A stretch of DNA of 21,721 nt from a virus: IMG/VR virus record IMGVR_UViG_3300042691_045931, positions 1 to 21,721 of that record, one strand, 5' to 3'. The notes under the pieces are model-generated. The model was not told the DNA's origin. It was given only the letters and a program-made list of their open reading frames with translations, and searched no databases. Shown piece after piece: positions 2,318 through 21,721 of the stretch. The stretch's first letter is position 1; each line of letters starts with the position of its first letter. Position numbers and translations under genes: made by a program.

Positions 2318-2370
2318 AGGGGCCTCGGGTCCCTTTTTCCTCGTAGTGAACCTTATCTCTAAGGAGGAGA
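2318..2370 (+). promoter_or_regulatory. Module B: terminator, box and Shine-Dalgarno
   Basis: Stem aggggcc (2318-2324) pairs with ggtccct (2328-2334), followed by T-run 2334-2338, box cctcgtagtga (2339-2349) and AAGGAGGAG (2361-2369) before the ATG at 2373. The GTG inside the box (2346) opens the same frame, but it lies upstream of the SD and is not the start. Confidence 0.6.
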
Positions 2371-2372
2371 TT

Positions 2373-2696
2373 ATGCTTTACGTTTTGAACTCTTTTCCCA
2401 ATTCTTTGTACCCCACCACACCAGGTGGGGTTATAACCAGCACTTGTATTTCAGAGGAAGAGGCCCGCGCTCTCCTCTCCATTACTGACTGGACAAGTGC
2501 TATAGGGCACCTCTCTACGGCGGAGCTACTCTCCGCCCGTCTCGGAGTAACCGTACCCGTGAATCGGGTACAGGTGCCCCCAGGGGCCGAGTATATTGTA
2601 TGTTTATTTGTCAGCCCTCGGCGGTTGGCAGAAGGAGAACGATGGACGGAGGAGGATATACTCCAGTTCGACATCAACTACATCCTTGTTAAGTAG
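2373..2696 (+). CDS. acrIII-1: AcrIII-1 family viral ring nuclease (DUF1874), anti-CRISPR
   Basis: The 107-residue protein matches the DUF1874 / AcrIII-1 family (SIRV1 gp29, STIV B116) along its length. It begins MLYVLNSF, like the family's first strand. It has AIGHLSTAELLSARLGV, with H46 aligning to catalytic H47 of SIRV1 gp29, then VNRVQV. The segment RRLAEGE places R84 and E87 opposite R85 and E88. The protein ends with a beta-strand as in the family. Family members cut cyclic tetra-adenylate (cA4), the second messenger made by type III CRISPR effectors, and so stop Csx1/Can-type ancillary nucleases. Some cellular relatives (Crn2) are fused to or sit beside CRISPR genes, but no cas gene is nearby here, which favours a viral or plasmid anti-CRISPR. 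The start at 2373 is fixed by AAGGAGGAG. The gene has its own terminator and box, so it is expressed alone. Confidence 0.9.
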   Translation: MLYVLNSFPNSLYPTTPGGVITSTCISEEEARALLSITDWTSAIGHLSTAELLSARLGVTVPVNRVQVPPGAEYIVCLFVSPRRLAEGERWTEEDILQFDINYILVK

Positions 2697-6165: not shown

Positions 6166-9100
6166 ATGAGTACCATCAACTCTATCGTCTTTCAATCCAA
6201 TATTCTCGTAGCCTCTATCAGCGTCGCTATCATCGCAGGTGCTCCTACTACACGACGTGTAGGCCCTGGTCGCCGCGCTCAGCAGATAGCGAGCCGTCGC
6301 GCTAATCGCGTAGTACGCCGTCGCTCTCGTCGTATAGCGTCAGCCGGCCGCCCCATCCGCTCTCTACCTCAAAGTCAACGTCCCTGCGTTGTAAAATCAG
6401 CACGACGTGCGCTACGTCGTGCCGCAGCTGCCGCAGCTTCAGCCGCCCGCAAACCCGTATTACGTAACCGTAACGTCGTAGACAAACTTGTCTTACGACA
6501 ACGTAAGGCCAAACCTATACTGCGCGCTGTCAGCGCAGTATTTGCGCGTCCCTCGCGTTCTATTAGCACCGGCGCTAAAGCCGTTGCTACCGTAAATAAT
6601 GCTGCTGATAGTATTATCGCTGCCCTCGACCAAGGCCGCGTAAACTACCGCGGCAACGGCCGCACGTGTGTAGGCAAGAAGTACAAAACTAAAAACGCTA
6701 AAGCCGTTTTAGCGATAACTAAAGCTGCTAAAGCTACTGATAAAGCAGCACGCGTTAAACGCTGTATGAGCGTTGTAGTACCAGAATTACCAAGTGATGT
6801 ACTGGCTTGCCGCATGAGAATCGTAGGCAAACTATGCGGTGTGACCTTTGTACAAGGGGACATAGCGTCTTATTGTGACAATGTCGTTACTGTACCTTCA
6901 TTCGAAGATATATACGCGATAACTCACGAGCTTGTCCACCACTGCCAAGCTCTAGGTCTTACTGAAGACCTAGATATAGCTCTGGTGTCTGAGGCCGCTA
7001 TTGGCGCGGGCTCGGCTCAATGGCATGACACTAAATCTTACTACGAAGGTACTGAACACGAGAACGACGAATACGAAGCAGCTCTGCTTATGTACGACCC
7101 GGCATTAGTGGCCCGCCTCTTATGCACTCACTACCTCATGACCGCGTTTGTAGAAAGCGGGGCACCTGGTCCTGATGATATATGGATGGATGTAGTAGAT
7201 AGTTTAGATCCTGCGATTTGTCGTGAAGTCGTAGGTCTCGATGATCGCGTACTCGATTATAAAACCTATGGCGAATATGCTGAAGCCGTTGGATATGATG
7301 ACACTAATACGTTATTAGACTGGGAATTTGTCTTTAACAATAGTGTCAACAACGATAATGCTGTTGCGCTAACCATTCAAGCAATTGATGGTCTTATTGG
7401 TGCGGCGCCCGCAGCAGTAACTCCTACCCACCCGCTCTCTAACATAGGAGCCCCTACTAAGGGGTTAGAGAGTGATAGCTCCTCTAACAATACCACCAAC
7501 ACTAGCACTACCATGAAGAGCATTATCGAGATGTTAATTCCTGACCCTAGTACTCTCGGTGGAGTCGTGTCTCCTAAGCAGGAGGCGCGCATCACAGCAG
7601 CTCGTAAAGAGTTAACCCGCTTGTTTGGGGCTAATAACTTCGACCTTCTGCCTGAAGGTCCGATTCTCTATGTCGTATCTGGTTACAACCGTATGTGTAA
7701 GAAGTTCCTTGCGCTTCTAGACCATCGGGTTGTTTACACCACGGATTCTAAAATGAATCCTAAGGTCATTAACTTAGGTGTAACTAAGTCTATTCCCTAT
7801 GAAGACGACAAGCATACCTATACTACTAAGACCGAATGCTTAGTTAGCATGTATAGTGAGCACTTCCTCACTAAGTTAGCCACGTGGTCTGGTGACGATT
7901 TAGCCGCTCTTGTAGGCTGTCTATGTGTCAAGCAGCATCGTACTGTTAGTGTTGAGGGCCCCTGTGTGGTTATCAAAGGTAATAACCGCAGCACTACTTT
8001 CAACTTTAGTACAGGTAGCGTCAATGATGGTCGTCAGAGTCGCATCGCTAATGAACTCGTTAAAGTCGGAGGCAAAGACTACAGTGGTCGTGTAGCCCTT
8101 GTGGCGCTCTGTATGAAGGTAGCGTATAACGCCACTGGTGCGCGTGCTATCCTCAATGAGGTAACTAACCTGTGGCGCGAGGACATCAACTACGGCGCTC
8201 AGCCTAAAGAGGGTCAATCTCTATTTGAGATTAATCGCTGTATGTCCCGTCCTGTAGCGTTCAAGCCTTGGGATAAGGCCTTCCCCTTCCTGCAAGTGGA
8301 GAACGTTGGCCTCGCACCCAGCGATCTTGAATTGTCGCTCAAAGCCAATGTCATAGCAGCACCTGATAAATACAATGCAAAATGGATCGCTGTAGGTAAG
8401 GGTGCCAAGGCCATGTTCCTCGGACTTAAGGATAGTAAGATATACTCCATCCATGATTTTAGCAAGCCCACTAAGGTGTACAACCGTCCGCCTAGCTCGG
8501 GTAAATACACTCGTGCTGAGATTATAGATCGTCGTGATAGTCTACTTCGCGTTGATTTAGGTGATGGTAACTATAGTTGTGGTGGTGGCCTCTATCTACG
8601 CACCGCATTCACCAATAGCCGCTTTGGCTTTGGCAGTGGTGTTGCTGCTATACGCCGCGACCTTGAGTTCGAATACACCGTACCGAAGACCATTACTAAG
8701 GAGTTTCACGTACTCCGTATTCCTAGCTCAGTTCGCGCTCTTATGGCTGCTGATCTAGATGACCCCACGAGTAAACTCATGGAAGTCATCGAAGGCAAGA
8801 TAGAGAAAGCGAAGGGCCAGGTTTATGCTCCTGGTAACTCTATCATTAGCATTATGCAGGGCAAGTACTGCATAGTGAAGAACGAGACATTCGCGCAGGA
8901 CATCCGCGTAATAGGCGGGACTGTCACGCGTAATGGCGTCGAGGGCCGCGCTGATAGCGTCACTATTCGACTTGAGACCGAGATGGTGGGGCGCGACCAA
9001 GCCCTCAAACTCCGCGGTCTAGGTAAGAAGCTTACCACTCTTCCCTATGACGTTGAGGGACTATCTCAACCCTGGGATATCATCCTAAATAACGAGACCA

Positions 9101-11262
9101 CCAAGGGATGGCCCGCGCTCATAGAGATGTTCGCCATTGAGAAGGGGGGCTGCACCTATACTCCCGAAGGTGCGCTTCTCACCATCGATGATACTGGTGA
9201 AGTTATTGATCTTATGACTAAGAGTAATACCTTTACTGAGTGGGCTCAAGCCAAACTGGCTACTGATGATACTGGAGCCAGTGTTAAAGAGGTCATCTCC
9301 TTTGATATGGCCCGCGACCTGTGGGATTCCATCTCCTCCGTAGTAACTAACGATGACATCAAGGTAATCGACATCGACGATACCAGCGTCCGTATCGAAG
9401 AAACAGTAGAGGTTATATACGGCTATCTGCCATACGATATCGAGATAGCCACTCCTCGTGAGTCCGTAGCATTCTCCAAAATGACTATGGAGCAGATAGG
9501 TATTGTGGCTCTACAGAACCGCGGTTGGGGCGAAGCGCTCATGGAGGAGGTTAAATACGATAACGTCATGTCCATAGTTAGTATGATCACATCTAAGGAA
9601 TGTGATGCTTGTATTAACATCAGCACTACTGAGGGGCGTGACCATCTACGGGACATTATCGGCGTAGTTAACAACTATGTTTCTGATAGCACCCCTGGCA
9701 GTGACCGCAATCTGCTAGATCGTTTTGCTACCGTCTACCCCGATGGAGTGGATATCGTTGCTCAGAATAACGGTAATGAAGTCTCTCTTCATATCAATGG
9801 TAAGGCCCTAAGCGCGTTCGGTACCTTCTCTGGCGCCTCCGCTACTGGTATTATGCTAGACCTCTTGACACTGTTGGCCTACGTTACTGATGTAGGAATT
9901 GAAGACCAAAGCGGTTTGGATAGTAAAATCTACTCCATGACCGCTAAGGTCAGCCGCGGTTTACGCACATGGTGTAACACCATGGTTAAATCCAAAGGCA
10001 TTATGAAGAGTATGGCCCGCGCTGGCGATGTGGTCGTTGGTAAGGTCAAGACCAGCTATAGCCCCTTGCTCCATAGCGCTGATGGCGTGCCTGTAATTCT
10101 CATGCACCCCAATTGCCCTATGGTACGTATGCTTGGCATCGAAGAAGGTCAGGTTATTGGGATACAACGGACTCCTATGGGCTTCGTCCTATGCGGCCGC
10201 GTTAAGTTATCTACTACCGATGCCTTCGTCGCACACTACACAGTCAACCCTCTCCTATGGCACGCCGTTAACGAAGGCGATGCTGATGGTGACCAGTGCG
10301 GCGGCATTAATGCTCACAAATACGGTATCGACGCTGAGAGTGCCCTCACTATCAATGCTAGTCTCATGGGCATAGGCGGCTACTTCTACTGCTACGAAGC
10401 AGATGACCTGCCGTTCTTCGCCTTCATGAGCTATGAAGATAAGATAGGCAAGAAATCCCTCACTAAGTGGGATAAGCCTGTAGCTACTGCTATCGCTGTC
10501 GATAAGTACGTCAGCGACGCTGCTGAGGTGCACACGCATTATAAAGTAGCCGTAGGTGTTGGCTATGGTATCTGTTCTGCACTTGCCTTCCAAACCTGGG
10601 ATAGTATGTACCGTGCTAGCGGCGTCGATACCGACGCACTTAAAGCGTGTGTTATCGCCTGGCGTTTCGTCTATGAAAGCATGGGTCTCGGGGGCTATAC
10701 CCCTGAGGCTAAGATCTTCATGGCTACTTTAGTGCAAGCAGCCCGCGCCTGGGCTGCTGGCGTACCTATGTATAAGTCGTCGCAGGACGGGTTATACTAC
10801 TCTGCCAATTCCACTAAGCTTTTGGATACGGATCGCCAAGGAGGTGGTGTACCTCCTGCTCGGGCTATGGCTGACCTTATGCCCGCTAAGCTGGCTAAGG
10901 AGCCCGCGGTAATCTACCAGCTTATAAAGGCCCGCGCCCGTACTCTCACATACGGTGCTCTCGAACGGGGCAACTTCGCTCGCGAGAGCCTTATCATGTC
11001 ATCTGCCATATACGGAGCCTTCCGTCGTACTGGCCAGGGCCATGATCCTGTGGTTCCTATGACCCAGGATGACGCAGCCAGTTATGGCGCTGATGATATC
11101 GTCCCCGTTAGTGTGTTCGACATGGTAAGTGAGTTCCAACTCTCTAACTATGTCAGGAACCCTCAACTTAAGCAGCTGTTGGAAATCGCAACTGTTGTAC
11201 ATCTCGACCTCGGCGACTATAAACTAGAACTCGCTGAAGCTGAAGATCATCCTGATTTCTAA
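6166..11262 (+). CDS. Zincin metallopeptidase fused to a single-chain two-barrel RNA polymerase, 1698 aa
   Basis: The order of domains is as follows. Residues 10-27 are hydrophobic, and about 28-140 are Arg/Ala-rich and disordered. A zincin domain has HELVHH (H254, E255, H258) and a probable third ligand in EHENDEYEA (297-305). A Ser/Thr/Asn-rich linker (about 420-450) ends at an internal Met450. The polymerase follows. Near residues 943-975, KLRGLGKKL (K948, R950, K954, K955) and DIILN (from D971) match the beta-subunit barrel (HGNKG and DIVLNP in bacterial RNAP). At about 1330-1380, VIGIQRTPM, VNPLLW and NEGDADGDQ match the beta-prime barrel; D1372, D1374 and D1376 would bind the catalytic magnesium. 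The single chain recalls YonO-type and crAss-like phage polymerases. The peptidase is not part of those as I know them. It may cleave the precursor at the linker or act on a host protein. No SD precedes the ATG at 6166. Confidence 0.85.
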   Translation: MSTINSIVFQSNILVASISVAIIAGAPTTRRVGPGRRAQQIASRRANRVVRRRSRRIASAGRPIRSLPQSQRPCVVKSARRALRRAAAAAASAARKPVLRNRNVVDKLVLRQRKAKPILRAVSAVFARPSRSISTGAKAVATVNNAADSIIAALDQGRVNYRGNGRTCVGKKYKTKNAKAVLAITKAAKATDKAARVKRCMSVVVPELPSDVLACRMRIVGKLCGVTFVQGDIASYCDNVVTVPSFEDIYAITHELVHHCQALGLTEDLDIALVSEAAIGAGSAQWHDTKSYYEGTEHENDEYEAALLMYDPALVARLLCTHYLMTAFVESGAPGPDDIWMDVVDSLDPAICREVVGLDDRVLDYKTYGEYAEAVGYDDTNTLLDWEFVFNNSVNNDNAVALTIQAIDGLIGAAPAAVTPTHPLSNIGAPTKGLESDSSSNNTTNTSTTMKSIIEMLIPDPSTLGGVVSPKQEARITAARKELTRLFGANNFDLLPEGPILYVVSGYNRMCKKFLALLDHRVVYTTDSKMNPKVINLGVTKSIPYEDDKHTYTTKTECLVSMYSEHFLTKLATWSGDDLAALVGCLCVKQHRTVSVEGPCVVIKGNNRSTTFNFSTGSVNDGRQSRIANELVKVGGKDYSGRVALVALCMKVAYNATGARAILNEVTNLWREDINYGAQPKEGQSLFEINRCMSRPVAFKPWDKAFPFLQVENVGLAPSDLELSLKANVIAAPDKYNAKWIAVGKGAKAMFLGLKDSKIYSIHDFSKPTKVYNRPPSSGKYTRAEIIDRRDSLLRVDLGDGNYSCGGGLYLRTAFTNSRFGFGSGVAAIRRDLEFEYTVPKTITKEFHVLRIPSSVRALMAADLDDPTSKLMEVIEGKIEKAKGQVYAPGNSIISIMQGKYCIVKNETFAQDIRVIGGTVTRNGVEGRADSVTIRLETEMVGRDQALKLRGLGKKLTTLPYDVEGLSQPWDIILNNETTKGWPALIEMFAIEKGGCTYTPEGALLTIDDTGEVIDLMTKSNTFTEWAQAKLATDDTGASVKEVISFDMARDLWDSISSVVTNDDIKVIDIDDTSVRIEETVEVIYGYLPYDIEIATPRESVAFSKMTMEQIGIVALQNRGWGEALMEEVKYDNVMSIVSMITSKECDACINISTTEGRDHLRDIIGVVNNYVSDSTPGSDRNLLDRFATVYPDGVDIVAQNNGNEVSLHINGKALSAFGTFSGASATGIMLDLLTLLAYVTDVGIEDQSGLDSKIYSMTAKVSRGLRTWCNTMVKSKGIMKSMARAGDVVVGKVKTSYSPLLHSADGVPVILMHPNCPMVRMLGIEEGQVIGIQRTPMGFVLCGRVKLSTTDAFVAHYTVNPLLWHAVNEGDADGDQCGGINAHKYGIDAESALTINASLMGIGGYFYCYEADDLPFFAFMSYEDKIGKKSLTKWDKPVATAIAVDKYVSDAAEVHTHYKVAVGVGYGICSALAFQTWDSMYRASGVDTDALKACVIAWRFVYESMGLGGYTPEAKIFMATLVQAARAWAAGVPMYKSSQDGLYYSANSTKLLDTDRQGGGVPPARAMADLMPAKLAKEPAVIYQLIKARARTLTYGALERGNFARESLIMSSAIYGAFRRTGQGHDPVVPMTQDDAASYGADDIVPVSVFDMVSEFQLSNYVRNPQLKQLLEIATVVHLDLGDYKLELAEAEDHPDF

Positions 11263-11766: not shown

Positions 11767-12465
11767 ATGAGAACAACACAACGCACCGCCAAAACCACCG
11801 CAGGAACCACCGCCAAAACCACTACTACTCTATCCCCTATAGAAGCATTCAAAGCAGCGGTAGCAGAACCTAAACCACAGGAATCCAAAGCGCAACTGCT
11901 TTTCTCAATAGCGTTTACAACTAAGTTCCTTCCAGAACGCTTTTGGAACAAAGAATGCTCCGACGGAACCGTCCGGCTAGTAGGCACAGTCACGCGGACT
12001 AACAATATTACCCGCCAGGGTTTCCCAATTGCTAACGACCAGCTTGTTGATATGACAGTTGAAGTCCGGGTAACACCGGACCAATTTGAGATTATCTCTG
12101 ATGGCGCTGAAGGCATGGTAGGAGCGGGCTTATCCGTTCTCTTCGAGGTCGGGGAGCCCATCTTATCCGAACTCACCGTAAACGGTGAGGAAGTCAATAG
12201 CATTGTCTTTTACGCTATGGCCTTGGTAGGCATGGAGGTCAATCATACTTCCATTAGCGGCCGAGGCTTTGATTCAAAGAATGAGATGGATAACTGGTTC
12301 TCAAAGGCGCGGTCTCAGAATAATGCTCGGCAGAAGCGCCGGCAAGTAGAGCGCACTGCTCGGCTACAAGCAACACAAGCTGCACAAGCTGTTGTCGCTG
12401 CTGCAAATAACGATGCAGAGTGGGCGGCGACGACCCCTGCCGCAAGCACCAATCCTATGGACTAG
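11767..12465 (+). CDS. Unknown protein with Thr/Lys-rich start and basic C-terminal helix, 232 aa
   Basis: The protein begins with a disordered Thr/Ala/Lys segment (residues 1-24). A folded, beta-rich middle (about 42-160) has the stretches VRLVGTVTR, LVDMTVEVRV and LTVNGEEV. A basic helix (about 176-200, QKRRQVERTARL) and an Ala/Gln-rich tail ending TNPMD follow. The general plan (disordered start, beta domain, basic helix, flexible tail) matches the protein at 5366, but I see no residue-level homology. No SD precedes the ATG (GCTAGCCATGAG), as with 5366 and 6166. Its location after the polymerase and after module K suggests the same functional set. It could be a nucleic acid-binding partner, but this is inference. 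Confidence 0.8.
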   Translation: MRTTQRTAKTTAGTTAKTTTTLSPIEAFKAAVAEPKPQESKAQLLFSIAFTTKFLPERFWNKECSDGTVRLVGTVTRTNNITRQGFPIANDQLVDMTVEVRVTPDQFEIISDGAEGMVGAGLSVLFEVGEPILSELTVNGEEVNSIVFYAMALVGMEVNHTSISGRGFDSKNEMDNWFSKARSQNNARQKRRQVERTARLQATQAAQAVVAAANNDAEWAATTPAASTNPMD

Positions 12466-12470
12466 TAATT

Positions 12471-12554
12471 AGCCGACCTTATCGGAGGTCGGCTGATATA
12501 CGCCTCTCTATTAATAGAGAGGCGTATATATCGTTCTACTACAGAGAGAAGGAA
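12471..12554 (+). promoter_or_regulatory. Leader with hairpin and 34-bp perfect palindrome
   Basis: Stem agccgacct (12471-12479) pairs with aggtcggct (12486-12494), followed at once by a perfect 34-bp palindrome (12496-12529, centre TTAA). Then come a shared CTACTACAGAGAGAA stretch and the purine-rich GAGAGAAGGA before the ATG. The same arrangement, with a different palindrome, precedes the gene at 13517. A bidirectional terminator or an operator is possible. Confidence 0.6.
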
Positions 12555-13415
12555 ATGAACGCTATACCACACACAATAATATCTAGACAGGGCGTCGAAC
12601 AGAATAGAAGACAGTTTAAAGAACAACCCTTCGGGGAAGATTTGGGCAATGGCATCACCTTAGAAATGGTTGCCATCCCGGGGGGAACTTTCCTGATGGG
12701 TTCATCGCCAAATGAGAAAGATAGTTACGATGATGAACGCCCTCAACATGAGGTTACTGTCTCCACCTTTTTCATGGGTAAATACCCCATCACCCAGGCT
12801 CAGTGGAAAGAGGTTGCCTCTCGCACAGATTTAAAAGTTAAACAAGACCTTAATCTCAACCCGGCCCATTTTAAAGACCGTCCCGATAGTGATCGCCGCC
12901 CCGTAGAACAAGTCAACTGGTACGATGCCGTTGAATTTTGTGCGAGATTATCGAAACTGACGGGAAGGGAATACCGACTACCGAGTGAAGCGGAATGGGA
13001 ATACGCTTGTCGTGCTGGAACCACCCCCCCATTTCACTTTGGGGAAACCATTACGGGGGAATTGGCTAACTACCGTGCCAGCTATACCTACGCTGGAGAA
13101 CCGAAGGGAGAATATCGAGAAGAAACGACTCCCGTGGGACAATTTCCCCCCAATGCCTTCGGACTGTGCGATATGCATGGCAATGTCTGGAAATGGTGCG
13201 CCGATACTTGGCATGATAATTATGATGGTGCGCCGACGGATGGCAGTGCTTGGATAGAAAATGAGGATGATAATCATTCTTCTCTGCGGGGCGGTTCCTG
13301 GGGCTTCAATCCTGATAGCTGCCGTTCCGCGATTCGCGGCAGCAGCAACCGCCGCGACGTCTGCGGCAACGATGGCGGTTTTCGGGTGGTCTGCGTATTC
13401 AGAAGAACTCCCTAA
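12555..13415 (+). CDS. FGE-sulfatase/C-lectin fold protein, probable DGR target, 286 aa
   Basis: After about 20 residues shared with the following gene (NAIPHTIISRQGVEQNRRQF), the protein is a typical cyanobacterial FGE-sulfatase domain. It has MVAIPGGTFLMG, DDERPQHEVTV, YRLPSEAEWEYACRAGT, FGLCDMHGNVWKW and the C-terminal LRGGSW (from L244) ... CRSAIR ... GFRVV. Enzymatic FGEs make formylglycine in sulfatases. In this lectin-like subgroup the fold instead displays a variable ligand surface, diversified by a DGR reverse transcriptase. The codons at the exposed positions (13302-13376) almost all end in C or T, as expected if they derive from AAC/AAT in a template repeat. No reverse transcriptase or template repeat is in this window. 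The ATG at 12555 follows GAGAGAAGGA. Its codon use differs from the flanking genes, which suggests capture from a host. Confidence 0.85.
   Translation: MNAIPHTIISRQGVEQNRRQFKEQPFGEDLGNGITLEMVAIPGGTFLMGSSPNEKDSYDDERPQHEVTVSTFFMGKYPITQAQWKEVASRTDLKVKQDLNLNPAHFKDRPDSDRRPVEQVNWYDAVEFCARLSKLTGREYRLPSEAEWEYACRAGTTPPFHFGETITGELANYRASYTYAGEPKGEYREETTPVGQFPPNAFGLCDMHGNVWKWCADTWHDNYDGAPTDGSAWIENEDDNHSSLRGGSWGFNPDSCRSAIRGSSNRRDVCGNDGGFRVVCVFRRTP
13287..13394 (+). other. Putative DGR variable repeat (VR)
   Basis: This covers the RGGSW-to-FRVVC segment of the preceding gene. Framework codons (CGG GGC GGT TCC TGG, TGC CGT TCC GCG, TTT CGG GTG GTC TGC) alternate with sites coding G, F, N, D, S, I, V and C, whose codons all have a pyrimidine third base (GGC, TTC, AAT, GAT, AGC, ATT, GTC, TGC). 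That is the pattern left by adenine-specific mutagenesis of AAY codons. The template repeat is not present here. Confidence 0.6.
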
Positions 13416-13516: not shown

Positions 13517-13891
13517 ATGACATTAATCAACGCAACCCCTCACTCTATCACCCTCGTCTCTAGAGAGGGCGTCGAACAGGACAATAGAAGACAGTTTCTT
13601 GCTGAAACTGTTGAAATTCTGAGAGAGATACCTCCGTCGGGGATTCTCGCACGAGTTTCAATGGTCAACTTCCCTGCGGGGGAGATCGATGGTATTGCCA
13701 TCGAGTCCGTCACTTACGGAGAGATCGAAGGACTACCAGAACCCCAGGAAGGGGTTTATTACATTGTATCTGGGTTAGCGGCCGCCGCGGCCGCTAAGAT
13801 AGGTCGCGTGGACTGTTTAGCCCCCGGCGCGCTAGTTCGGGATAAAAAGACAGGCGTAATTCTAGGTTGTCTGTTTTTACAAGTATCCTAG
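13517..13891 (+). CDS. NATPH-type conserved phage/plasmid protein, 124 aa
   Basis: The N-terminus INATPHSITLV and the later segments PPSGILARVS, YGEIEGLPEPQEGVYYIVSG, and LAPGALVRDKKTGVILG match a family of about 110-130 residue proteins found in phages and bacterial mobile DNA (typical start NLTPH or NATPH), whose function is unknown to me. The length agrees, so this is the intact version of the module whose first 20 or so codons also head the FGE gene. A poly-alanine stretch (GLAAAAAAK, near residue 90) is encoded by a GC-rich 21-bp inverted repeat (cggccg core, around 13777-13800), which is odd for an otherwise conserved helix. The start follows AGAGAGAA. Confidence 0.8.
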   Translation: MTLINATPHSITLVSREGVEQDNRRQFLAETVEILREIPPSGILARVSMVNFPAGEIDGIAIESVTYGEIEGLPEPQEGVYYIVSGLAAAAAAKIGRVDCLAPGALVRDKKTGVILGCLFLQVS

Positions 13892-19491: not shown

Positions 19492-20181
19492 TCACACGTA
19501 AGCAGCCTGCTCCCTCCTGAAGATATCAAGTAGGGGATCGATAGTAGATCTAAGGCCAGCCATGAGATGACGAGCTGCATTAGTAGGTAGGCCCCGCCAC
19601 CAGCGCTGCACCTTCTCCTGAGCCCAATCGAGGCCCAACCGCGTCATAGTGCACTGTAGTGTGCGCTCAAGCAGGCGGGTGAACTGAGCGAGGGGGCGTA
19701 TATCACCACTATCGGTACCGTAGTGTGCTACCCACTGAGAGGGGTCAGCGATAACCTCAGGATTCTGAGTAGCGTGGGCCAGGAGCTTATTCTCGATGGG
19801 GCTCACGTACCAGAGATTACTATAGTCGTTATTAGAGGTATCACCATCGAGGTGATGTACCTCCATGAGGCCCGCGCGGCAGACCTCACCGCGGCGTTCT
19901 CGTCTCCAACCAGCGGCGGGCCGCCTATCAATGTAGAGCACTATCTGGTGAACATATACCAACTCCTTACGGACGTTAGTGCAGTGGAACGCGAAGAAGC
20001 GACACTGCTCGAGATAGTCGAATAGCCGCTTATTCTCCTTAGCGAGAACGTACTGGTAGCCACTGGCATTGGTACGAATAGTGGCAGCCGCGAGATAACG
20101 GCGGGCCCCGCCTAGCATAATATACATGGCGTGATAAGATGGACGAGGTTCGAATCCGCTACTTGAATATTTTGTTTCCAT
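19492..20181 (-). CDS. HNH homing-type endonuclease, 229 aa
   Basis: Residues 107-136 read EVHHLDGDTSNNDYSNLWYV followed by SPIENKLLAH. This is the HNH motif: H109/H110, the N117-N118 turn, N122 and H136, of the kind found in free-standing phage homing endonucleases (HNH_3-like). The N-terminal part is alpha-beta. The C-terminal 80 residues are helical with Trp/Arg (WAQEKVQRWWRGLP) and may bind DNA. It is the only gene on the minus strand, a sign of independent insertion. The assigned ATG (20179-20181) has only a distant AAGGAAGG. An internal start at MYIML (residue 19) is possible. Its own 5' side is the hairpin array 20223-20552. There is no RuvC-like domain, so it is not a full IscB. Confidence 0.8.
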   Translation of the reverse strand: METKYSSSGFEPRPSYHAMYIMLGGARRYLAAATIRTNASGYQYVLAKENKRLFDYLEQCRFFAFHCTNVRKELVYVHQIVLYIDRRPAAGWRRERRGEVCRAGLMEVHHLDGDTSNNDYSNLWYVSPIENKLLAHATQNPEVIADPSQWVAHYGTDSGDIRPLAQFTRLLERTLQCTMTRLGLDWAQEKVQRWWRGLPTNAARHLMAGLRSTIDPLLDIFRREQAAYV

Positions 20182-21257: not shown

Positions 21258-21479
21258 ATGAATAATGAGAGTAATGATATAAATTACGCTAAGGCGCGAC
21301 TAGATGCACACAGCATACCCTGGGCGCCTATCAGCGATGAGTGCCTTCGTATCACAGTAGGAGAGCGCTCCTACTACTACTACCTGCGCCGGGGGAGGTG
21401 GCGGGCCAGAGGAAGCAATAGGGAGTATAATACACACTCTATCGACCACCTAATAAAGTTCCTCTCCAGGATCCCTTAA
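21258..21479 (+). CDS. Small phage-type protein, 73 aa
   Basis: The protein begins MNNESNDINYAKARLDAHSI. The middle (LRITVGERSYYYYLRRGRWRARG) and end (SIDHLIKFLSRIP) resemble a small phage protein type with the plan of a start helix, HGI-like turn, aromatic strand, TGKWR-like turn and a final helix before YL. I know these only as conserved phage hypotheticals. No SD precedes the ATG. It is the last gene before the inverted repeat at 21489. Confidence 0.65.
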   Translation: MNNESNDINYAKARLDAHSIPWAPISDECLRITVGERSYYYYLRRGRWRARGSNREYNTHSIDHLIKFLSRIP

Positions 21480-21488
21480 TTAACTAAC

Positions 21489-21587
21489 GGCCCACCACAG
21501 GCCCACAACAGCTAATCAGAGGGACCCATCCTAGAGTTTCAATCCCTAGTAGGGATTAAGTTAGCTGTTGTGGGCCTGTGGTGGGCC
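21489..21587. repeat. Perfect 27-bp inverted repeat enclosing a CRISPR-repeat-like loop
   Basis: The arm 21489-21515 (begins GGCCCACCACAGGCCC) is the exact reverse complement of 21561-21587. The loop is 45 bases (21516-21560). There is no T-run after the right arm, so it is not a simple terminator; a further GC stem (21584-21590 with 21603-21609) and a CCAATAATTTATTGG palindrome (21608-21622) follow. Confidence 0.9.
21536..21560 (-). CRISPR. Solitary CRISPR-repeat-like unit
   Basis: On the - strand the sequence reads CTTAATCCCTACTAGGG followed by ATTGAAAC. It has the internal aatccct/agggatt dyad and the ATTGAAAC end (crRNA 5' handle) of cyanobacterial type III-B and I-D repeats, and it resembles a Microcystis-type repeat as I remember it. 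There is only one copy and no cas genes, so it is not an array. A degenerate extension may run into 21561-21572. It could be a decoy repeat (RNA anti-CRISPR), a captured repeat or chance. Confidence 0.5.
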
Positions 21588-21622
21588 CCCCCGATAACGT
21601 AAGGGGGCCAATAATTTATTGG
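21584..21622. terminator. GC stem plus AT palindrome after the inverted repeat
   Basis: ggccccc (21584-21590) pairs with gggggcc (21603-21609), followed by the AT-rich palindrome CCAATAATTTATTGG. This is terminator-like, but the T-run is poor, so the call is tentative. Confidence 0.35.
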
Positions 21623-21721
21623 TTACAGCGTCTAATAAATAGCTTCACCCGATTGGGGGAATCGCCAAGGGCGGTTTATATGTCATCCTGAGGAGAGGAT
21701 AGGCCTAACTCCCTTACGGGA

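Follow-up and report, generated by a model that had tools for sequence, protein, structure and literature searches.

A stretch of viral DNA 21,721 nt long (hereafter the window; IMG/VR record IMGVR_UViG_3300042691_045931, positions 1 to 21,721) carries near its end a CRISPR-like repeat enclosed in a long hairpin. This arrangement raises a question: does such a unit act as an RNA decoy against the CRISPR system of the phage's host? A preliminary description, made from the letters of the window, had proposed as much. We compared the locus with host genomes, with related phages, and with known systems.

The hairpin and the identity of the repeat

The inverted repeat is perfect, as had been described: its two arms of 27 nt each are 100% complementary and are separated by a loop of 45 nt, making it the longest perfect inverted repeat among those listed for the window (Table 1). 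Folding of the minus-strand RNA of the hairpin gave −72.8 kcal/mol (z = −9.0 vs. shuffles), and an inner stem-loop of the CRISPR type formed within it.

At the start of the loop, the minus strand (21560 to 21536) reads CTTAATCCCTACTAGGGATTGAAAC. Microcystis subtype I-D repeats have the form GTTCCAATTAATCTTAAACCCTA[T/C]TAGGGATTGAAAC (PMC4428289), and when the window is compared with the 25 nt at the 3' end of the host repeat, the best match has one mismatch, as opposed to 7–10 in each of 20 mononucleotide shuffles; we thus rejected a chance match. The likeness to a Microcystis repeat that had been proposed is borne out (24/25 to the I-D 3' part), but its proposed extent is not: in the 37-nt unit put forward earlier (21536–21572), only 25 nt (21536–21560) are repeat-like. 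The repeat's first 12 nt are absent, and the hairpin arm stands in their place. Over the 25 nt that are left, the sole difference from the host repeat is a phage-specific A-to-T change, by which the interrupted stem of the repeat (−5.3 kcal/mol) becomes continuous (−10.0 kcal/mol). Cas6d would be expected to cut this repeat before ATTGAAAC.

With up to 3 mismatches in 20 allowed, no second repeat copy was found in the window. The remainder of the loop, where a spacer would lie, matched its own locus only, with no protospacer elsewhere. Arms and repeat are less variable than the adjoining linkers (5/80 vs. 19/87, p = 0.004); variation among seven sequences was too low to judge covariation. The 73-aa ORF next to the hairpin had no Pfam match.

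Table 1. Positions of the hairpin, its surroundings, and two further genes in the window
Feature	Position	Strand	Remark
Left arm of perfect 27-bp inverted repeat	21489..21515	.	Arms conserved in relatives
Right arm of perfect 27-bp inverted repeat	21561..21587	.	
Truncated type I-D CRISPR repeat, 3' 25 nt, CTTAATCCCTACTAGGGATTGAAAC	21536..21560	−	24/25 to Microcystis DR1b
Rest of loop, spacer position	21516..21535	−	Resembles native DNA beside the 73-aa gene (TCCGGGATGGGCC in G008)
Adjacent C/G hairpin GGCCCCCCCGATAACGTAAGGGGGCC	21584..21609	.	Loop inverted between relatives (sequence, alignment)
Palindrome CCAATAATTTATTGG	21608..21622	.	Centre inverted in L128 (alignment)
Conserved non-coding region, 3' end	21648..21721	−	Cut by window end; ~360 nt in relatives
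73-aa ORF	21258..21479	+	Converges on hairpin from opposite strand
HNH endonuclease ORF (PF13392, 3.6e-6)	19492..20181	−	Other side of same intergenic hot spot
AcrIII-1-type protein (PF08960, STIV_B116-like, 1.9e-12)	2346..2696	+	Counter-defence context (Pfam)

Phage lineage and host

Between 62 and 80% of the window aligns at 85–91% identity to MaMV-DH01, MaMV-DC, MaMV-CH01/CH02/DL01/DL02, and Ma-LMM01. This alignment identifies the window as part of the genome of a Ma-LMM01-like Microcystis phage, whose host, judging from these relatives, is likely Microcystis. The C form of the I-D repeat, with 200 spacers, occurs in FACHB-524, which six MaMV phages infect (PMC11855584), and I-D arrays are also present in Microcystis genomes. 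When a 600-nt phage unit was compared with 12 Microcystis genomes, the repeat alone matched among the matches listed, in 8 of the 12; the exact phage 25-mer, with T at position 6, occurred in none of them (0/12). Microcystis I-D spacers match relatives of the window phage with 6–7 mismatches and a GTT flank, and GTN/GTH is the I-D PAM (PMC10212523). Ma-LMM01 infects NIES-298 despite matching host spacers, and the authors of that study considered CRISPR to be possibly ineffective (PMC5780444).

Three contigs of 4–6 kb (L019, L022, and L029) hold two repeats each, with the exact 25-mer of the window inside one of the two; these contigs are matched by Microcystis I-D spacers at 40–41 of 40–42 nt. 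The AcrIII-1-type gene that had been reported in the same element is indeed there, though 19 kb away from the hairpin. Elsewhere in the window, a 1698-aa ORF (6166–11262), with no Pfam match, contains NEGDADGD, which resembles the metal-binding motif known from multi-subunit RNA polymerases, and an ORF at 12420–13415 has a sulfatase-modifying-factor (FGE) domain (PF03781, 2.9e-62).

A promoter and a conserved non-coding region

The DNA past window position 21721 can be seen in G005 (L115), a 107-kb contig that is near-identical here. On the same strand as the repeat, it has the promoter TTGACA-17-TATAAT with a TG extension (L115:1018–1046), agreeing with the sigma-70 consensus at 12/12 positions and located 440 nt upstream of the truncated repeat, outside the window. 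In this contig, the promoter is followed by ~360 nt of non-coding DNA (the conserved region being L115:1053–1440), two small hairpins, and the repeat-bearing palindrome. The promoter is kept in the clades carrying the hairpin. Only 7 of 358 columns vary in the non-coding region vs. 35 of 260 in the neighbouring 73-aa gene (p = 2e-8), and the whole unit folds with a z of −7.

Because of its promoter, its conservation, and its folding, we take the non-coding region to be an RNA: this structured, almost invariant stretch of ~360 nt behind a perfect sigma-70 promoter is possibly a new phage RNA. A search of Rfam at E up to 1 returned nothing beyond tRNA, CRISPR-DR5 below threshold, and chance matches, those of microRNA type among them, which leaves no known RNA family for the region at that threshold. 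A host origin of the region was also rejected: among the matches listed for the 12 Microcystis genomes, the repeat is all that matches.

The same locus in related phages

MaMV-DH01 and MaMV-DC both have the hairpin with its repeat, as do several IMG/VR contigs, those of the window's own lineage among them. The preliminary description had held that its reading would fall if the unit were neither transcribed nor conserved in relatives; the hairpin does recur in several of them, but its loop is inverted in MaMV-DH01/DC and the repeat has been lost in L128. In three hairpin clades, the repeat is invariant and in the sense orientation, which is limited to these clades. Inversion of the 45-bp loop in MaMV-DH01/DC places the repeat antisense to the promoter, such that the promoter strand carries its complement. 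L128 keeps the promoter and the non-coding region; in G008, a repeat is kept near the site, and a look for the promoter in the loci examined did not find it. The arms of the G003 clade differ by a paired double change that leaves the palindrome perfect.

Neighbouring hairpins are flipped as well: the promoter core (in MaMV-DC), CTCCCGTAAGGGAG vs. CTCCCTTACGGGAG, and the C/G hairpin. Because the loops of these nearby hairpins are flipped too, inversion seems, from the alignments, to be a general by-product of palindromes in the region, and we rejected a specific invertible switch for the repeat as the leading explanation.

Full-length I-D repeats come directly after the same promoter and 5' leader in Ma-LMM01 and MaMV-CH01/CH02/DL01/DL02. 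The Ma-LMM01 array has three full-length copies, ending in GAAAA, and that of MaMV-CH01 has two exact full-length copies. The term "solitary," which had been applied to the repeat, holds for the window lineage but not for these other members of the genus, which have a mini-CRISPR array at the same locus.

Repeats were also noted at other sites. An inserted segment in MaMV-DH01 (163286–164096; L135:484–1294), absent in MaMV-CH02 and DC, contains two small ORFs and three diverged I-D-like repeats, and it looks, from its sequence, to have been imported from a host. Further solitary repeats (L123:1490–1524, L102:1488–1524, and L010:14400–14440) end exactly where repeat-less relatives have GTN, the repeat standing in place of the PAM.

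Repeat junctions and possible capture from host arrays

In G001, G002, G007, and G008, a host CRISPR leader has been captured (88–94% identity over ~170 nt) and is followed by a full repeat, the second at hand in these relatives (leader and first I-D repeat at L119:1350–1570, with homologues in G001, G002, and G007). An 11/12 promoter accompanies this leader-borne repeat in the one relative scanned. The repeat runs straight into tRNA-Met sequence, and GTC precedes that site in other phages. Similar flanks were found at other junctions: the sequence adjoining the G008 repeat is preceded by GTT in relatives, the native site of the Ma-LMM01 repeat at 13627 is preceded by GTG, and the native flank in another cyanophage family (L010 vs. 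L026) is GTC. Two junctions are mixed: GTA stands in one of two native contexts for the last repeat of the Ma-LMM01 array, and for the second MaMV-CH01 repeat, three lineages have GTT and another three have ATT. The junction of the window hairpin is CTC, not GTN, and the PAM-junction signature was therefore rejected for the window's own repeat; the other exceptions are MaMV-DH01 164073 (GAT) and spacer 1 of Ma-LMM01 (GCC). Overall, GTN occurs at 7/10 junctions (the MaMV-CH01 spacer counted) against a background of 5.5% (p = 1.6e-7), or at 5/10 with the two ambiguous junctions taken as failures (p = 1e-4); the cases were gathered after the first ones had been seen, and these p-values are a guide only.

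The simplest reading of the junctions suggests recombination with a host array by way of a phage-matching spacer, with the PAM swapped for the end of a repeat. For two captured repeats (cases A and B), a host spacer corresponding to the tail was found in none of the 12 Microcystis genomes. A broader proposal, which we regard as somewhat unlikely, is that Fukuivirus phages take up host I-D repeats (sometimes with the leader) through spacer/protospacer recombination, with replacement of the PAM, and reuse them as decoys or anti-rival arrays. The imported repeat would take the place of the PAM, and the protospacer would then be spared as self because the repeat gives it a host-array flank. Some copies would be set behind a strong phage promoter, producing decoy RNAs or anti-rival mini-arrays; the window hairpin would be a late, truncated product, now serving as the 3' domain in phage RNAs of a new class.

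The mini-array of MaMV-CH01

The mini-CRISPR array of MaMV-CH01 (40326–40438; L101:1488–1600) has a single 39-nt spacer in a repeat-spacer-repeat arrangement, and the spacer corresponds to sequence in related viruses. It matches the complement of the promoter region at 39/39 positions, with a 5'-GTT flank, in Ma-LMM01, MaMV-DH01, the window lineage, and others. The promoter of MaMV-CH01 itself has four mismatches at spacer positions 7–10, its palindromic core being flipped. At the same target, a 4-nt deletion in the G003 clade shifts the flank, and MaMV-DC differs at spacer positions 30–33. The array is apparently aimed at rival Fukuivirus phages, with targeting predicted from these matches.

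Candidate functions of the window unit

What, then, might the truncated repeat do? We tentatively favor, with a little less than even confidence, an RNA decoy for Cas6d/Cascade as the best-supported function, by analogy to RacrIF1, which works as an RNA anti-CRISPR decoy (PMC10651486). The long palindrome that holds the truncated I-D copy would close a phage non-coding transcription unit at its 3' end; the minus strand of the window would most likely be transcribed, with the repeat as the 3' domain of that RNA. Cas6d would bind, and perhaps cut, the repeat stem-loop, and Cas6d/Cas7d would be held in dead complexes; with these proteins tied up, host I-D interference would be weakened. The 27-bp stem would keep the RNA together and present the repeat, the ancestor of which probably came from a host CRISPR array via recombination. 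We infer these steps of transcription, Cas6d binding, and inhibition at the window unit from the features described above.

The unit mimics the repeat of the host's subtype (24/25 to the Microcystis I-D 3' part), and FACHB-524 exemplifies a host with the same CRISPR subtype, the host being judged from relatives. The 12/12 promoter is in line with the repeat on the same strand, yet it is 440 nt upstream, and the repeat is antisense to it in MaMV-DH01/DC; the selection of published Racr candidates called for a promoter no more than 250 nt away. At 25/37 nt, coverage of the repeat is 68%, which counts as a partial match in SRUFinder, where a full solitary repeat has at least 90%. The RNA anti-CRISPR reading of the preliminary description is plausible by analogy, for a unit short of full length and in an uncertain relation to its promoter. 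Besides the I-D identity and the promoter, points in its favor are the full repeats of the sister loci, the low variation of the hairpin, the stem made continuous by the A-to-T change, the leader-borne second repeats, the GTT-flanked spacer matches, the RacrIF1 precedent, and the ineffectiveness of CRISPR proposed for Ma-LMM01. Against it stand the 12 missing nt, the distance of the promoter, the inversion in MaMV-DH01/DC, the restriction of the sense orientation to three hairpin clades, and L128, which is without the repeat. A long double-stranded stem could also hinder the loading of Cas7d or invite RNase III.

The chief rival to the decoy, quite possible if doubtful, is that the repeat or a mini-array entered via host I-D recombination, was truncated and caught in the palindrome, and has no present function. 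Such a relic would account for the truncation, the inversion in MaMV-DH01/DC, and the absence in L128; it also agrees with the repeats at related loci that end exactly at the GTN PAM of repeat-less relatives and with hairpin loops flipped across the region as a palindrome by-product. The window junction, however, is CTC rather than GTN, the hairpin and its repeat vary less than the adjoining linkers, and the repeat is held in four clades. The paired arm change of the G003 clade, which keeps the palindrome, likewise counts against a relic, although gene conversion could do the same. We consider it decidedly unlikely that the palindrome is instead the 3' end of the RNA, or a structure for replication or packaging, for which the CRISPR likeness merely supplied a good stem-loop. 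Its position, preceded by two other hairpins and by non-coding DNA that is strongly conserved, would suit that role, as would the folding scores (z of −9 for the hairpin and −7 for the whole unit) and the tolerance of inversion. But the palindrome is absent in L128 and LMM01/CH01, and the repeated acquisition of I-D repeats behind the same promoter would be left unexplained; it also has no T-run and was not found by a terminator scan, on which grounds an ordinary intrinsic terminator was rejected. Very improbable, finally, is a mini-CRISPR array guiding host Cascade against rival phages, as the MaMV-CH01 sister array seems to do. The exact, GTT-flanked spacer match to the promoter of LMM01, DH01, and the window lineage speaks for it, as does the difference at positions 7–10 in MaMV-CH01's own copy, but the window has one truncated repeat followed by sequence that matches its own locus only.

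Comparison with known systems

Most Fukuivirus genomes examined have a repeat-bearing unit after one conserved promoter; this offers a testable answer to the ineffectiveness of CRISPR proposed for Ma-LMM01, and culturable phages (MaMV-DH01, MaMV-CH01, and Ma-LMM01) with their hosts (FACHB-524 and NIES-298) allow testing. The sister loci provide a natural test of anti-rival mini-arrays in tailed phages and of PAM removal via repeat capture, the latter being a route by which solitary repeats in general may have arisen. In staphylococci, phages reportedly recombine with CRISPR loci through spacers (Varble et al. 2019). A like process would explain why sister-locus repeats have their junctions at protospacer boundaries; unlike in the staphylococcal work, recombination is proposed here from natural cyanophage sequences.

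The CH01/CH02/DL01/DL02 locus resembles the viral mini-arrays of interviral conflict in SPV1 and SPV2 (PMC6858448): it has host-type repeats and one spacer that matches related phages and not fully its own genome. The window differs from such arrays in having neither a second repeat nor a matching spacer: it has one repeat, with no protospacer elsewhere, in place of a repeat-spacer-repeat unit with an anti-viral spacer. The array of Nostoc cyanophage N-1 (PMC4916379) is also borne by a cyanophage, with DR5-type (I-D) repeats and without cas genes; it differs in its five repeats and four spacers, in being transcribed, and in having no hairpin. In CRISPR-DR5 itself (RF01318; gathering score 40), the full repeats of CH01, LMM01, and a leader-borne copy match below gathering (37.2, 31.4, and 29.4, respectively), and L115, in which the window-type unit lies, does not appear among the matches at E up to 1.

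The closest precedent is that of RacrIF1 and the Racr candidates (PMC10651486). In contrast to them, the window unit is 25/37 nt long, lies in a 27-bp palindrome behind ~360 nt of conserved non-coding DNA, is of type I-D, and is known from its sequence. It has a promoter in line, though 440 nt upstream, and shares with them an intergenic, single repeat of the host's subtype, carried by a phage, and an acr-type gene in the same element.
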